IMG/VR virus record: IMGVR_UViG_3300033145_000192
Coordinates: 1 to 64,000 of that record
Length of the DNA stretch: 64,000 nucleotides
Source of the DNA: a virus
Reading direction: 5' to 3' (one strand)
Position numbers and translations under genes: made by a program. The notes under the pieces are model-generated. The model made no database searches. It had not been told where the DNA came from and worked only from the letters and a program-made list of their open reading frames with translations. This document shows, piece by piece, positions 4,570 through 46,269 of the stretch; within the stretch, counting starts at the first letter, position 1, and each line of letters begins with the position of its first letter.

Positions 4570-4856
4570 TGGACTTCTTCGCTTTTCATGGTGTCCTGTG
4601 GGGCATCCTACTTATCATCGCCTTGACCACGTTCCCACGGCTTTCAATGCTGGGAATGCTTATCTGGGGCGCACTCACGGGTGGTGGGGTGCTTTGGTGG
4701 CTAGGGTTTGTGTTCACTCCTGGTATTGTCGTGGCCTATGAGGCTACTTGCCATTATTGGGATACCAACCCCGTCCTTTGCGTTTTCGCATGGCTCGTGG
4801 CTTTCTGTAGCTTCGGCGGCGAGGCCAAGACCGTGCATAGCAAGAGTAGCAACTAA
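4569..4856 (+). CDS. integral membrane protein
   Basis: The TAATG overlap fixes the start. The 95 residues are dominated by three hydrophobic segments (LLIIALTTF, MLIWGALTGGGVLWWLGFVF, CVFAWLVAFC). The short C-terminal tail is polar. Function unknown. Confidence 0.65.
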   Translation: MDFFAFHGVLWGILLIIALTTFPRLSMLGMLIWGALTGGGVLWWLGFVFTPGIVVAYEATCHYWDTNPVLCVFAWLVAFCSFGGEAKTVHSKSSN

Positions 4857-5074
4857 TGATTGCCGCACTTGTTATCACTGGTGTCCTAGCAGTCGTCCTG
4901 TTCGGTGCAGCCATCTTCAATATGGCTCGCATGGGCAAGAACGTAATGGAGTTTCAGTTCGATGAATTCGGCGGCGGATTCTTCTGGCACTGTATTCTCG
5001 GGGGTTTTGCCGGTTTGTCGTTTACAGCATTTGTGGTGCTGCTAATCGTGCATCTACTCTCAATCTACGCTTGA
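4856..5074 (+). CDS. integral membrane protein
   Basis: The TAATG overlap with the previous gene fixes the start. The protein has an N-terminal helix (residues about 3-24) and a C-terminal hydrophobic segment (about 47-71) flanking a glycine-rich stretch. Its stop overlaps the -35 box of the promoter for the PARP operon. Confidence 0.65.
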   Translation: MIAALVITGVLAVVLFGAAIFNMARMGKNVMEFQFDEFGGGFFWHCILGGFAGLSFTAFVVLLIVHLLSIYA

Positions 5075-5099
5075 ACTTTGGGCACTTTCGAGCTATAAT
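5071..5099 (+). promoter_or_regulatory. sigma70-type promoter upstream of PARP-like gene
   Basis: TTGAAC at 5071-5076 and TATAAT at 5094-5099, 17-bp spacer. Transcription would start about 30 bases before the AGGAGAGCGAAAG ribosome site of the PARP-like gene. Confidence 0.8.
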
Positions 5100-5134
5100 C
5101 TAGGTATGCGAAAGACCTGCAAGGAGAGCGAAAG

Positions 5135-6403
5135 ATGACTGAAATCAATAGAGTTATGCTTATCAAGACCGACGCTGACGAGAACAATAACAAGTTCTGG
5201 GAAGCAATAGTCAACGACGATGGACGAGTAGACTGTCGATGGGGCCGAGTTGGCGCTAATGGACAGTCTAAGTCTTTTAATGGCGGTCAGACATATCTCG
5301 ACAAGAAGATGAGAGAAAAGGCCAAGAAGGGCTATCGTGAGGCAAAGGTAGTTACGGGTTCTAGCTCAACTACCACGACCGTAGCCGACTCCACCCTGAG
5401 AAATATCGCCAAGAAGCAGATTGAGCACAGTAGCCCCGAAACGGCCAAGCTCATCGAATATCTGGTGAAAGTCAATGCACATCAAATTACCAAGGCTTCT
5501 GGTGGTCAACTAAATGTTGATGCTGCCACTGGCATGATTAAGACTCCTCTTGGAGTGCTTACGCAGGAAGCTATTGACGACGCTCGTGACCTACTCATAG
5601 AGCTAAGTAAGTTGCGGGTTCCATCAAAACGAACGACGCCAAAGTTCAAAAGCAGCGTGCAGGATTACCTAATGTTGGTGCCGCAGGTTGTTGGGCGTAA
5701 GCGTGGCTGGCTCGAAACGATGTTTCCCGACACCGATAGCGTGCAGAAGCAGAATGCTTTGCTTGACTCACTTGAGGCAACGCTAGGCGCTATTGCGACT
5801 ACACCACAAGCGGCTGCTATTCCTGCCGACCAGGTGTTCAATGTTAAGTTGGTCCTCGTTGACGACAAGGCGACAAAGGCCAAGATTAACAGGCTCTACA
5901 CTCAGACTAGGAAAAGGATGCACACGAGCTATAAGCTCCAGCCCAAAAGAATCTTCATGGTGGATATCGCGAGGATGGCTGGTGCATTTGACAACGACGG
6001 TGCTAAGGTCGGAAATGTAAAGGAGTTGTGGCACGGCACGCGAGCCTCTAACCTCCTTAGTATTCTGAAGGGTGGCCTTATCATCCCGTCTAGCAATGCT
6101 GGACACGTTACGGGACGTATGTATGGTAATGGCGTCTACTTTAGCGACCAAAGCACCAAGGCATTGAACTATGCTCACGGTTACTGGGGTGGCGGCTATG
6201 ACAACACTTGCTATATGTTCCTAACGGACGTTGCTATGGGCAAGGAATATGTCCCATCTGGATATGGCGATAGACGAAGCCTCCCTCGAAAGGGATATGA
6301 CTCCACGTTTGCTAATGGCGGCCAGTCTGGCGTTGCAAACAACGAGATGATTGTCTATCGTGTTTCTCAATGTAACCTCAAGTTCCTAGTGGAGTTTAGC
6401 TAA
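5135..6403 (+). CDS. PARP1-like ADP-ribosyltransferase (WGR-PRD-ART)
   Basis: Predicted to transfer ADP-ribose from NAD+ to protein or DNA ends. Residues about 5-75 are a WGR domain with the triad W36-G37-R38 in RWGRVGANGQSK. Residues about 95-225 resemble the helical PARP regulatory domain (TPLGVLTQEAIDDA, YLMLVPQVVGRK, DSVQKQNALLDSL). Residues about 295-422 form the catalytic domain with the H-Y-E triad: H300 in LWHGTRASN, Y335 in GNGVYFSD and E404 in NNEMIVYRV. The end (SQCNLKFLVEF) mirrors the PARP1 C-terminus. The three-domain order is that of eukaryotic PARP1 without its zinc fingers. The gene has its own promoter and overlaps the next gene by TAATG. Confidence 0.93.
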   Translation: MTEINRVMLIKTDADENNNKFWEAIVNDDGRVDCRWGRVGANGQSKSFNGGQTYLDKKMREKAKKGYREAKVVTGSSSTTTTVADSTLRNIAKKQIEHSSPETAKLIEYLVKVNAHQITKASGGQLNVDAATGMIKTPLGVLTQEAIDDARDLLIELSKLRVPSKRTTPKFKSSVQDYLMLVPQVVGRKRGWLETMFPDTDSVQKQNALLDSLEATLGAIATTPQAAAIPADQVFNVKLVLVDDKATKAKINRLYTQTRKRMHTSYKLQPKRIFMVDIARMAGAFDNDGAKVGNVKELWHGTRASNLLSILKGGLIIPSSNAGHVTGRMYGNGVYFSDQSTKALNYAHGYWGGGYDNTCYMFLTDVAMGKEYVPSGYGDRRSLPRKGYDSTFANGGQSGVANNEMIVYRVSQCNLKFLVEFS

Positions 6404-7507: not shown

Positions 7508-7659
7508 GCGAGAGTAGCTCAAGTTGGTAGAGCGGCGGGGTGATTCCCGTGTTAGTTCTTAGTGACTGACCCATTTAACTTTACCTAGGGAAAGTTGTGG
7601 AATCATGTGTTAGTCTAGACACATGCTAAGACGTGAAGGTTCAAATCCTTCTTCTCGCA
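7508..7659 (+). tRNA. oversized tRNA-like gene (152 nt), identity unclear
   Basis: The acceptor strands pair 7/7 (GCGAGAG / TTCTCGC), the D-arm is normal (GCTC...GAGC) and the T-arm is normal (GAAGG-TTCAAAT-CCTTC). About 80 extra bases lie between D-arm and T-arm. They include a CGGG/CCCG hairpin with loop GTGATT and a perfect 7-bp hairpin CATGTGT/ACACATG. No unique anticodon can be assigned. Confidence 0.55.
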
Positions 7660-23634: not shown

Positions 23635-23706
23635 ATGGTTGAGGTTTTTTGTGCAGGTTTAATCGCAGGACTGTTGTTGGGGTATATTATCTACAGAAGG
23701 GGATGA
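23635..23706 (+). CDS. possible 23-residue membrane micropeptide
   Basis: A short frame (ATGGTTGAGG start) just after the promoter encodes MVEVFCAGLIAGLLLGYIIY plus RRG, a single membrane helix with a positive end. Its stop overlaps the first bases of tmRNA. It may be chance, but two similar micro-frames run into tRNAs elsewhere in the window. Confidence 0.3.
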   Translation: MVEVFCAGLIAGLLLGYIIYRRG

Positions 23707-24065
23707 AACGGCATCGACTCGCATGATGAAATGATGAATGCAGGCCGTGGAAGATACTCGGGCCACGTTAAAAAGGTATCGAAACTTTAATTGCCAAGAA
23801 CGTATTCAAGGCACGCCGTTACTACGGCATCCGCAGCACGGTTCGCCGTGCCGCAATCGTCGCTTAACCGATTGTAGTTAGGTCGTCTCCTAGACGAAAA
23901 TAGGACTCGTGCGGATATTCTCGTAAGCCGCAAGTTGTAAATAACGAGATAGTCGCTGGAACCAAGTAGCCAGATAGGTTGTTGGACCGATAAAACCAAC
24001 CAAGCCTGTGAAGAGTTTGTTGAAGATTGATGTAGAGGACTCGGGTTCGACTCCCGACATCTCCA
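23699..24065 (+). ncRNA. ssrA: tmRNA (one-piece) with unusual tag
   Basis: The acceptor strands pair GGGGATG (23699-23705) with CATCTCC (24058-24064), followed by discriminator A. A T-arm ACTCGGGTTCGACTCCCGA-type precedes the 3' end, and the 5' start matches the tmRNA pattern (GGGGATGAAACGGCATCGAC). The tag frame is 23793-23867: it begins AKNVFKARRYY, ends RRAAIVA and stops at TAA, 24 codons in total. CCA is not encoded. tmRNA rescues stalled ribosomes and tags the peptide for proteolysis. This tag is long and strongly basic, unlike usual ...ALAA tags, though it still ends hydrophobic. Confidence 0.9.
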
Positions 24066-24124
24066 TATTGGTTGTGGCCTCCTTTCGTAGCAGACCCCCG
24101 CTAGCATATCGGGTCATATATGCC

Positions 24125-24207
24125 AGGGATATACGCCACGCGGAGTAGAGCGGTCTTGTTTTCCGGCGCAGCAAGATGTGTGGTGGGTTCGACTCCCACT
24201 ATCCCCA
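24125..24207 (+). tRNA. tRNA-like gene with 13-nt anticodon loop (possible Gly TCC)
   Basis: Acceptor AGGGATA/TATCCCC (first pair A-C mismatched), D-arm with a CGC/GCG stem, T-arm GTGGG-TTCGACT-CCCAC. The anticodon stem TCTTG/CAAGA is perfect, but it encloses TTTTCCGGCGCAG. A TCC anticodon followed by six extra bases is one reading. Identity is uncertain. Confidence 0.55.
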
Positions 24208-44576: not shown

Positions 44577-45320
44577 ATGACGAAGAAGGAAACCAAGCTC
44601 AACCAGGTTCTCGCAATCGAAAAGGGCGTCAAGGCACGCACCAGCGGAACTGTCACCAAGCTCTATCACATGGTCCAGAAGCCAGTTTTGCTGGTCGGAC
44701 TAGCGAAGAACTATCAGCCTCTAAACGAGGATGGCCAGCACTATCCACCTGAGCGTCAGAGGGTTCAGGTCAGGGCAGAGGATACTCTCAAGGATACCCG
44801 AAAGGCTCTTGCAGAGTTGTTTGATATCACAGCCAGGAAGGACTGGGCAAACTGTGAGGCTAGGGCTGCGGTCGTGGTCAATGGCCAGGAGCTTGTTTCC
44901 AACGTCCCAGTAACGTATCTGCTCTTCCTCGAAAAGCAGCTTACCGACCTTCGCACCCTAGTCTCCAAGATTCCGGTCTTGGATGGTTCCGAGGAATGGA
45001 AGATGGACCTGGCAACAGGGCTCCATAAGACAGACCCAACCAAGACTACTAGGACTCAAAAGGTCCAGAAGCCAATCGTCCTTTATGATGCGACCGAGGA
45101 GCATCCAGCACAAACTCAGCTAATCACTGAGGACATTGTTGTAGGACATTGGACCACGGTGAAGCAGTCAGGTGCGCTACAGGCCGACCGAAAGGTTGAT
45201 GTGCTTGAGCGTATTGAGACTCTGCTAGAGGCAGTCAAGTTTGCCCGTGAAACGGCGAACAGCAATGATGCGCCAAAGCAGCAGGTTGCTGACGCTTTGT
45301 TCGGATACATCTTGGGCTAA
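44577..45320 (+). CDS. conserved phage protein (actinophage-type family)
   Basis: Resembles a family common in large actinophages: LNQVLAIEKGVKART near the start, PVTYLLFLEKQLTDLRTLV in the middle, and ATEEHPAQTQLI and AVKFARETAN later. 247 residues, no catalytic motif that I can name. A strong GAGGAGAGG site and its own sigma70 promoter suggest high expression. It may be a structural or host-takeover protein; function unknown. Confidence 0.8.
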   Translation: MTKKETKLNQVLAIEKGVKARTSGTVTKLYHMVQKPVLLVGLAKNYQPLNEDGQHYPPERQRVQVRAEDTLKDTRKALAELFDITARKDWANCEARAAVVVNGQELVSNVPVTYLLFLEKQLTDLRTLVSKIPVLDGSEEWKMDLATGLHKTDPTKTTRTQKVQKPIVLYDATEEHPAQTQLITEDIVVGHWTTVKQSGALQADRKVDVLERIETLLEAVKFARETANSNDAPKQQVADALFGYILG

Positions 45321-45340
45321 GGCTCAAGTAAGGCTCGGTC

Positions 45341-45374
45341 GTCTAAATAAAAAGACTCCCCTCATAGGGAGGGG
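45341..45374 (-). terminator. minus-strand rho-independent terminator
   Basis: CCCCTC/GAGGGG hairpin followed on the minus strand by AGTCTTTTTATTT. It would stop leftward transcription entering the end of the 44577 gene. On the plus strand no T-run follows. Confidence 0.6.
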
Positions 45375-45442
45375 CAATGTAGGTGAAAGTCCTACCTGAG
45401 TCATAAGGATAACAGACTGAATCTTAGATTTAGACTGAATGG

Positions 45443-45547
45443 CGATATGTCATTGGAGGTTCGAATCCTTCCCTGCCCAATACGTGGGCGGGTTCCCAAA
45501 CTGGCAAAGGGAACGGCGGTAACTAACCCGTCGTTGACAAAATATCG
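45443..45547 (+). tRNA. circularly permuted tRNA candidate A
   Basis: Upstream part: T-arm GGAGG-TTCGAAT-CCTTC (45455-45471), acceptor strand CCTGCCC (45472-45478), A73 at 45479. Six bases later comes the 5' part: acceptor GGGCGGG (45486-45492, pairs 7/7), TT, D-arm CCC/GGG with a GG-containing loop, and hairpin AACGGCGG-TAACTAAC-CCGTCGTT. The halves are tied by CGATAT/ATATCG (45443-45448 with 45542-45547) and GTC/GAC, as if the break were in the variable arm. The anticodon is uncertain (AAC in the 8-nt loop is one reading). Confidence 0.6.
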
Positions 45548-45606
45548 TGCTTTAGACTTAGCTTATTATCCTAAGTTGAGTATCGCAGGAGGTAGCTATA
45601 TCAAAT

Positions 45607-45772
45607 GTAACTGACAAACCAAGCCTGAGACACGGGTTCGAATCCCGTCTGGTCGATTGGACTGACAGCTTGTCTGTCGGACTGAACAGTGAGTAAGGGG
45701 AAACACACAAAACTTCCTATAACGACCGGTAGCTTAGTGGCAAAGCGTAGGTTTTCAGATTAACGCAGTTAC
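45607..45772 (+). tRNA. circularly permuted tRNA candidate B
   Basis: Upstream part: CCTG anticodon-stem strand (45624-45627), T-arm ACGGG-TTCGAAT-CCCGT (45632-45648), acceptor CTGGTCG (45649-45655), A73. After a 66-base spacer with a GACAG/CTGTC hairpin comes the 5' part: acceptor CGACCGG (45723-45729, pairs 7/7), TA, D-arm GCTT-AGTGGCA-AAGC and TAGG (45748-45751). GTAACTG (45607-45613) pairs perfectly with CAGTTAC (45766-45772) beyond the anticodon stem. The 5' loop side begins TTTTC, so a UUC (Glu) anticodon is possible but not certain. Confidence 0.65.
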
Positions 45773-45835
45773 TTAAACGTCGATAGTTACGTAATGTGCC
45801 TGTAACCAATATTGACTAACATCATAATTGTTAAA

Positions 45836-45869
45836 GGGGGCGGCGAACACGGTTAGGTTTCTCGCCCCC
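45836..45869 (+). other. GC-rich hairpin after permuted tRNA
   Basis: GGGGGCG pairs with CGCCCCC around a 20-nt loop; only ATTTC follows, so termination is uncertain. The flanking 45773-45835 stretch holds no recognisable gene. Confidence 0.5.
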
Positions 45870-45874
45870 ATTTC

Positions 45875-45946
45875 GACCTTATCGTCCAACGGATAGGACA
45901 GGAGTTTCCTAAACTTCAAATCTGGGTTCGAATCCCAGTAGGGTCA
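45875..45946 (+). tRNA. tRNA-Arg (CCT)
   Basis: Acceptor GACCTTA/TAGGGTC, D-arm GTCC...GGAC, anticodon arm GGAGT-TTCCTAA-ACTTC, T-arm CTGGG-TTCGAAT-CCCAG. Confidence 0.88.
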
Positions 45947-46016
45947 TTTCAAAACTAGCTGATTGAAACCATTTGTCCTAGGCAACATTTGGAAGTAGAT
46001 GTTACGGTTTGGGAGT

Positions 46017-46087
46017 AGGGTCGTAGTGTAATAGCAACATACCCGTCGTTGAGGCGGGAGATGCGGGTGCAACTCCCGTCGAGTCTG
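46017..46087 (+). tRNA. tRNA-Gln (TTG)-like
   Basis: Acceptor AGGGTCG/CGAGTCT (one mismatch), anticodon arm CCCGT-CGTTGAG-GCGGG, with G instead of T at position 33, T-arm GCGGG-TGCAACT-CCCGT. Confidence 0.7.
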
Positions 46088-46098
46088 TAGGAGTAATC

Positions 46099-46269
46099 AT
46101 GGCAATTGATATTGAGCACTGGTTTAAGAAAGTAAAGAGGTCTAAGGGACACCACGTAAGCAGAATGCAAGTTCCCCCAAATACAATGCAAGAACTCCTA
46201 GAAGAACTAAAAGCACTGAGACCGGCACCAAAGCCAGTGGAAGAAGAGTATGAAGAAGACGACACCTAA
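46099..46269 (+). CDS. 56-residue charged protein
   Basis: TAGGAGTAATC precedes the ATG. Basic first half (WFKKVKRSKGHHVSR) and acidic end (PVEEEYEEDDT). Overlaps the next gene by 20 bases. Function unknown. Confidence 0.6.
   Translation: MAIDIEHWFKKVKRSKGHHVSRMQVPPNTMQELLEELKALRPAPKPVEEEYEEDDT

Follow-up and report, generated by a model that had tools for sequence, protein, structure and literature searches.

The DNA analysed here (the window) comprises positions 1 to 64,000 of the IMG/VR virus record IMGVR_UViG_3300033145_000192, and the element in question lies at about 45592-45790, downstream of a gene for a protein of the DUF7873 family. An initial annotation had described a smaller segment (45607-45772) as a circularly permuted tRNA gene in a phage. 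We suggest that the element is probably the 3' half of a single conserved RNA whose structure comprises two permuted modules in tandem, A (45455-45511, just upstream) and B, and that the whole is a non-decoding twin tRNA mimic, similar in kind to a Y RNA, which is partnered by DUF7873 as a ribonucleoprotein (RNP). In each module a permuted T-arm, acceptor stem and D-arm would sit on a stem that replaces the anticodon arm, an arrangement that is well supported for module B and tentative for module A.

Linkage and covariation of the twin modules

A nucleotide BLAST search of this region against phages returned zero matches, and relatives were gathered through DUF7873 protein searches. We then scanned the 700 nt that follow each of 177 DUF7873 genes with a detector that required a permuted succession of T-arm, acceptor and D-arm and excluded ordinary tRNAs. 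It identified 277 modules, or 2.24 per kb, with at least one module in 168 of the 177 loci and at least two in 105. The background amounted to 0.005 per kb for the rest of the same strand, 0.006 for the opposite one and 0.002 for dinucleotide shuffles. Because the density downstream of DUF7873 exceeded the background about 400-fold, chance can be excluded. Several of the nine exceptions do contain the RNA. The detector overlooked copies of module B in two loci (L132, L089), and a third (L046) has a full copy of module B together with a module A in which a complete HNH homing endonuclease open reading frame (4854-5411) lies between the two acceptor strands. In a further locus the RNA (L001, 7938-8091, minus strand; 119.9 bits with the model described below) is on the strand opposite to the neighbouring DUF7873 gene, and therefore the linkage is not explained by an mRNA tail.

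A covariance model (R1) was built from 27 B modules, with that of the window left out. It matched module B of the window over its full length with 88.6 bits (E 9.8e-25; E 6.4e-25 in its own record). When R1 was applied to 148 actinomycete genomes, all matches above 52.4 bits were of full length, and they were found in exactly the nine genomes having DUF7873, adjoining the DUF7873 gene. Nearly all of the weaker matches listed covered just the tRNA-like core or its surroundings, and those examined were Ro60-linked Y RNAs and tandem ordinary tRNAs.

The acceptor stems were compared in 99 non-redundant pairs of modules A and B, which also served for the counts of U8 and encoded CCA given below; among them, the acceptor occurred in 44 versions in module A and in 62 in module B. 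In the covariation alignment of 61 RNAs, the pairs of the acceptor, T- and D-stems were standard in 53-61 sequences, most of them with several pair types, although the detector itself selects for pairing in these stems. The helices P1, P2 and P3 played no part in detection. P1 and P2 covaried, with up to six standard pair types per position and 41-58 of about 60 sequences pairing. In module B, the strands of one RNA paired better with each other than with cross-matched strands from other RNAs (P2, 7.37 versus 3.80; P1, 6.32 versus 4.41; P3, 5.31 versus 3.86), and the same was found for P3 of module A (4.70 versus 3.36). This contrast is conservative because related sequences raise the cross-matched values. 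Support for an outer helix of module A, formed by the 5' region with the middle region, was mixed (36-61 of about 60 sequences pair), and this helix is tentative.

All pieces named in the initial annotation were present in the window (Table 1), with the T-arm and 3' acceptor strand ahead of the matching 5' acceptor strand and D-arm. The acceptor CTGGTCG/CGACCGG pairs at 7/7 positions, one of them G-U, and neither ARAGORN nor Rfam built an ordinary tRNA from either half. The anticodon stem had been given as TAGG/CCTG; the pairing exists, but the helix is longer, with seven pairs (P3). The 7-bp helix GTAACTG/CAGTTAC was correctly recognised and is our P2, from which P3 is separated by loops of 7 and 11 nt. 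The additional outer helix P1 lies beyond an internal loop of 7+10 nt, making the element larger than first described. Among the relatives, compensatory changes were strong both in the acceptor stem and in P2, the two helices in which the initial annotation had proposed to look for them. The folding energy of module B alone was unremarkable against shuffles (z -0.02, single-sequence folding), and thus the case rests on the comparative evidence; the stretch containing module A gave a z of -3.4. A GC-rich hairpin downstream of module B is likely to form the 3' end of the RNA, judging from its terminator-like sequence. In five relatives (L002, L003, L006, L140, L089) module B is followed by a 3' hairpin, whose loop (C)GGATATG recurs and which is possibly a further conserved domain.

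Table 1. Positions of the DUF7873 gene and of the parts of the twin-module RNA in the window
Feature	Position	Strand	Remark
DUF7873 gene, 247 aa	44577-45320	+	Ribosome-binding site GGAGGAG just upstream; Pfam PF25283, E 7.4e-100; proposed protein partner
Module A, T-arm GGAGG-TTCGAAT-CCTTC	45455-45471	+	
Module A, acceptor 3' strand CCTGCCC, 7-nt loop AATACGT, acceptor 5' strand GGGCGGG	45472-45492	+	44 distinct pairing stems in relatives
Module A, D-arm CCC-AAACTGGCAAA-GGG	45495-45511	+	
Module B, whole	45586-45797	+	Full-length match to R1
Module B, outer helix P1, 5' strand GTAGCTAT	45592-45599	+	Pairs with 45783-45790
Module B, internal loop, 5' side ATCAAAT	45600-45606	+	Family pattern AUCGACC
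Module B, helix P2, 5' strand GTAACTG	45607-45613	+	
Module B, helix P3, 5' strand AAGCCTG	45621-45627	+	Anticodon-stem equivalent; pairs with 45748-45754
Module B, T-arm ACGGG-TTCGAAT-CCCGT	45632-45648	+	
Module B, acceptor 3' strand CTGGTCG	45649-45655	+	
Module B, linker, 67 nt	45656-45722	+	Contains hairpin; relatives usually 6-13 nt
Module B, acceptor 5' strand CGACCGG	45723-45729	+	62 distinct pairing stems in relatives
Module B, T8-A9	45730-45731	+	
Module B, D-arm GCTT-AGTGGCA-AAGC	45732-45746	+	
Module B, helix P3, 3' strand TAGGTTT	45748-45754	+	
Module B, helix P2, 3' strand CAGTTAC	45766-45772	+	
Module B, internal loop, 3' side TTAAACGTCG	45773-45782	+	Family pattern UUAAACGUG
Module B, helix P1, 3' strand ATAGTTAC	45783-45790	+	Pairs with 45592-45599
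Terminator-like GC hairpin GGGGGCG...CGCCCCC	45836-45870	+	From sequence

Comparison with tRNA, tmRNA and Y RNA

The twin-module RNA is not a decoding tRNA, because U33 is lost and a conserved stem takes up the anticodon side. U was found at position 33 in only 14 of 61 A modules and 24 of 61 B modules, versus 140 of 143 ordinary tRNAs in the same loci, and P2, P1 and their conserved loops stand in place of an anticodon loop. The tRNA elbow is retained in the form of U8 (99 of 99 in both modules), the T-loop and the GG of the D-loop, the latter two being also detector criteria, and position 26 is still mostly a purine. Of the initial annotation, therefore, the permuted order and the compensatory pairing stand, and the assignment to a tRNA gene, for which the anticodon loop would have to be conserved, does not.

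Genuine circularly permuted tRNA genes, whose outer flanks would be spliced into a circle before the acceptor stem is cut to release working tRNAs, could account for the complete elbow, the 7-bp acceptors, the U8, the anticodon-stem-like P3, the encoded NCCA of many modules (45 of 99 A and 24 of 99 B) and perhaps the RNA ligase gene nearby. Permuted tRNA genes of algae and an archaeon likewise have the 3' half before the 5' half and acceptor strands joined by a linker, and they use a bulge-helix-bulge (BHB) motif and a splicing endonuclease, a route known from these organisms only (PMC3978253). Unlike them, the RNA here is of phage or bacterial origin and has a conserved outer stem but no anticodon loop. 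A BHB motif was not seen at the junction, where conserved P2 and P1 stems with loops of 7-11 nt occur instead. A permuted group I intron-exon tRNA was also considered and rejected, as no group I intron match was obtained at E<=10 over 45200-46100. Since most modules moreover lack U33, we regard working permuted tRNAs as very unlikely. It is hardly credible that the modules are decayed tRNA genes or debris of tRNA recombination: the element does sit in a tRNA-rich phage region, but compensatory changes have preserved the pairing in chromosomes and in phages whose hosts are actinobacteria, proteobacteria and cyanobacteria, and the position next to the same gene is constant. In Klebsiella jumbo phages, an annotated suppressor tRNA (TTA; L012, 3266-3345) overlaps the T-arm of module B and is probably a misannotation of the twin-module RNA. 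Other calls of permuted tRNAs in phages may also be tRNA mimics.

The frequency of NCCA after the acceptor is far above the chance level of about 1/64. It is close to that of ordinary tRNA genes in the same loci, where CCA is encoded in about 18-38% (ARAGORN coordinates include the CCA); an enrichment over ordinary tRNAs was rejected, there being no clear excess, and the enrichment holds over chance only. The acceptor linkers range from 5 to more than 100 nt across loci and, as seen in the locus with the homing endonuclease gene, can take up an entire gene, as if the linker were removed or irrelevant. These observations would fit a two-piece RNA like the permuted transfer-messenger RNA (tmRNA), in which RNase P and 3' processing would excise the acceptor linkers and leave base-paired pieces with CCA 3' ends, possibly aminoacylated. 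Permuted two-piece tmRNA (RF01849-RF01851; PMC11915505) has the same succession of T-arm with 3' acceptor strand, linker and 5' acceptor strand, and its CCA is sometimes encoded. In contrast to it, the RNA here has a true D-stem and carries two modules; we noticed no reading frame for a tag in the stretch between A and B, though no dedicated search for a tag or for pseudoknots was made. Furthermore, the phage already has a separate standard tmRNA (23699-24068), many linkers are loops of just 6-8 nt, which is small for processing, and about half of the A modules and three quarters of the B modules have no CCA. The Rfam beta_tmRNA model gave 12.7 bits for module B of the window and 21.9 bits for one relative, compared with a threshold of 84. 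We therefore consider this reading doubtful, but the encoded CCA, the variable linkers and the endonuclease insertion keep it alive (PMC11915505).

The closest known plan is that of YrlA, a bacterial Y RNA whose permuted tRNA-like domain binds PNPase and whose basal stem binds Rsr/Ro60 (PMC8394870); its tRNA-like domain has also been suggested to inhibit an anticodon nuclease (PMC7790460). Both RNAs have a permuted domain of T-arm, acceptor hairpin and D-arm with no anticodon arm, a stem with internal loops and a protein gene close by. They differ in that the neighbour here is DUF7873 instead of Ro60, the modules are two in tandem, CCA is often encoded and the conserved loops are AUCGACC//UUAAACGUG and UUAUYGCUC. 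In Rfam, YrlA (RF02553) was the best non-tRNA match to the B modules of relatives, with 33-38 bits versus a threshold of 69, and module A of the window scored 15.5 bits. Tandem duplicated ordinary tRNAs in five loci (L183, L185, L186, L188, L190) scored about 39-43 bits with the same model, so that they can give rise to false calls of Y RNAs, and the YrlA score was thus rejected as a proof of homology.

It is unlikely that the RNA is a canonical Ro60 Y RNA working with the Ro60 of the host, although the similar plan, the sub-threshold YrlA matches and the presence of a TROVE protein in five of the six streptomycete-type genomes having the DUF7873 unit are in its favour. Streptomycetes carry Ro60-linked Y RNAs at loci separate from that unit, and their matches to R1 are confined to the tRNA-like core (within about 43-120 of 154). 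The RNA family follows DUF7873, and no TROVE protein was matched by Pfam in the window's own 177-kb phage record, the completeness of which is not established. Because of the missing TROVE match, the core-only R1 matches and YrlA scores at the level of tandem tRNAs, membership in the family is unproven; by its plan, the twin-module RNA would work like a Y RNA.

DUF7873 and other features of the window

The protein encoded upstream of the RNA matched the PF25283 profile with 334 bits (cut-off 27; E 7.4e-100). Its AlphaFold2 model was confident (mean pLDDT 95, pTM 0.70), and long hairpin strands in this model suggest that the protein may be oligomeric. No fold in the PDB gave a usable match (E<=0.001), and the single match among viral structure models was weak (E 1.2e-4, TM about 0.2). 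Protein searches found DUF7873 in 73 phage records, with hosts including Gordonia, Arthrobacter, Rhodococcus, Rhizobium, Vibrio, Klebsiella/Serratia, Pseudanabaena and Microcoleus, in 327 IMG/VR stretches, and in bacterial genomes with at least 574 matches, the best 80 of which were mostly from streptomycetes. In phages with annotation, a largely unannotated gap usually lies on the 3' side of the gene. Most of the gaps examined contain permuted modules, with a pair in phages of Arthrobacter, Gordonia, Rhodococcus, Klebsiella and Pseudanabaena and a single one detected in phages of Rhizobium and Vibrio. The unit of protein, A and B also occurs in streptomycete chromosomes and many IMG/VR contigs. 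In a search for shared neighbours, DUF7873 was the only sense-strand family common to most loci; apart from it, the search yielded small phage families and frames that were antisense or overlapping.

Rfam gave zero matches above threshold over the RNA in the five loci searched. In the literature, of which our coverage was incomplete so that an earlier description is possible, we found no mention of DUF7873 and nothing relevant on permuted tRNA in phages.

The window has other features of interest for RNA biology. The standard tmRNA has an unusual predicted tag, AKNVFKARRYYGIRSTVRRAAIVA, and directly 3' of it ARAGORN predicted a tRNA with a four-base anticodon (tccg; 24125-24207). An Rfam tRNA match of 35.8 bits at 7508-7659, which is not among the ARAGORN calls, has about 80 extra nt from D-arm to T-arm and is a possible intron-containing or otherwise enlarged tRNA. 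The RNA ligase gene (PF09414; 40780-41424) lies in the tRNA region, and its product possibly serves tRNA repair.

Proposed function and significance

Several points weigh against a Y-RNA-like partner of DUF7873. Encoded CCA in 45 of 99 A modules exceeds what a closed, uncut Y-RNA hairpin would need. Homology to YrlA is unproven and only the plan is alike, since 33-38 bits is no higher than the scores of tandem tRNAs. Some loci (L001/L098, L017, L049, L050) have no copy directly downstream of DUF7873, although L001 and, weakly, L017 have the RNA nearby according to R1. Finally, the structure searches recognised no RNA-binding fold in DUF7873.

On balance, we still find the Y-RNA-like twin mimic the best explanation. 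Most likely, DUF7873 would be bound by the stems, whose internal loops are conserved (AUCGACC//UUAAACGUG and repeated CUNA motifs), to form an RNP. By analogy with YrlA, whose partner is PNPase (PMC8394870), the two tRNA-like heads may attract a tRNA-binding partner. The Rsr-YrlA-PNPase RNA degradation machine (RYPER) offers a model for a protein tethered to a nuclease by a tRNA mimic (PMC8394870), although Pfam, PDB-sequence and PDB-fold searches did not match DUF7873 to Rsr. During infection, the heads might alternatively serve as decoys for nucleases that attack tRNA.

A bolder proposal, possible but speculative, is that DUF7873 and the twin mimic form a two-component device in which tRNA-processing enzymes excise the acceptor linkers to produce two CCA-ended heads. 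If true, such a device would engage the tRNA machinery through aminoacylation, EF-Tu, PNPase or tRNA-cleaving defences, and it would represent a new class of RNP, borne by phages and chromosomes, that is neither tRNA, tmRNA nor Ro60 Y RNA.

Returning to the Y-RNA-like twin mimic, the RNA is best read as a new, previously uncatalogued family partnered by DUF7873. The RNA and DUF7873, a protein with no assigned function, are found together in phages that infect actinobacteria, proteobacteria and cyanobacteria as well as in streptomycete chromosomes. If our reading is correct, Y-RNA-like tRNA mimicry would not be tied to Ro60 and DUF7873 would gain a testable function. This would also help to show how tRNA-rich phages manipulate the RNA decay of their hosts or survive defences that target tRNA.
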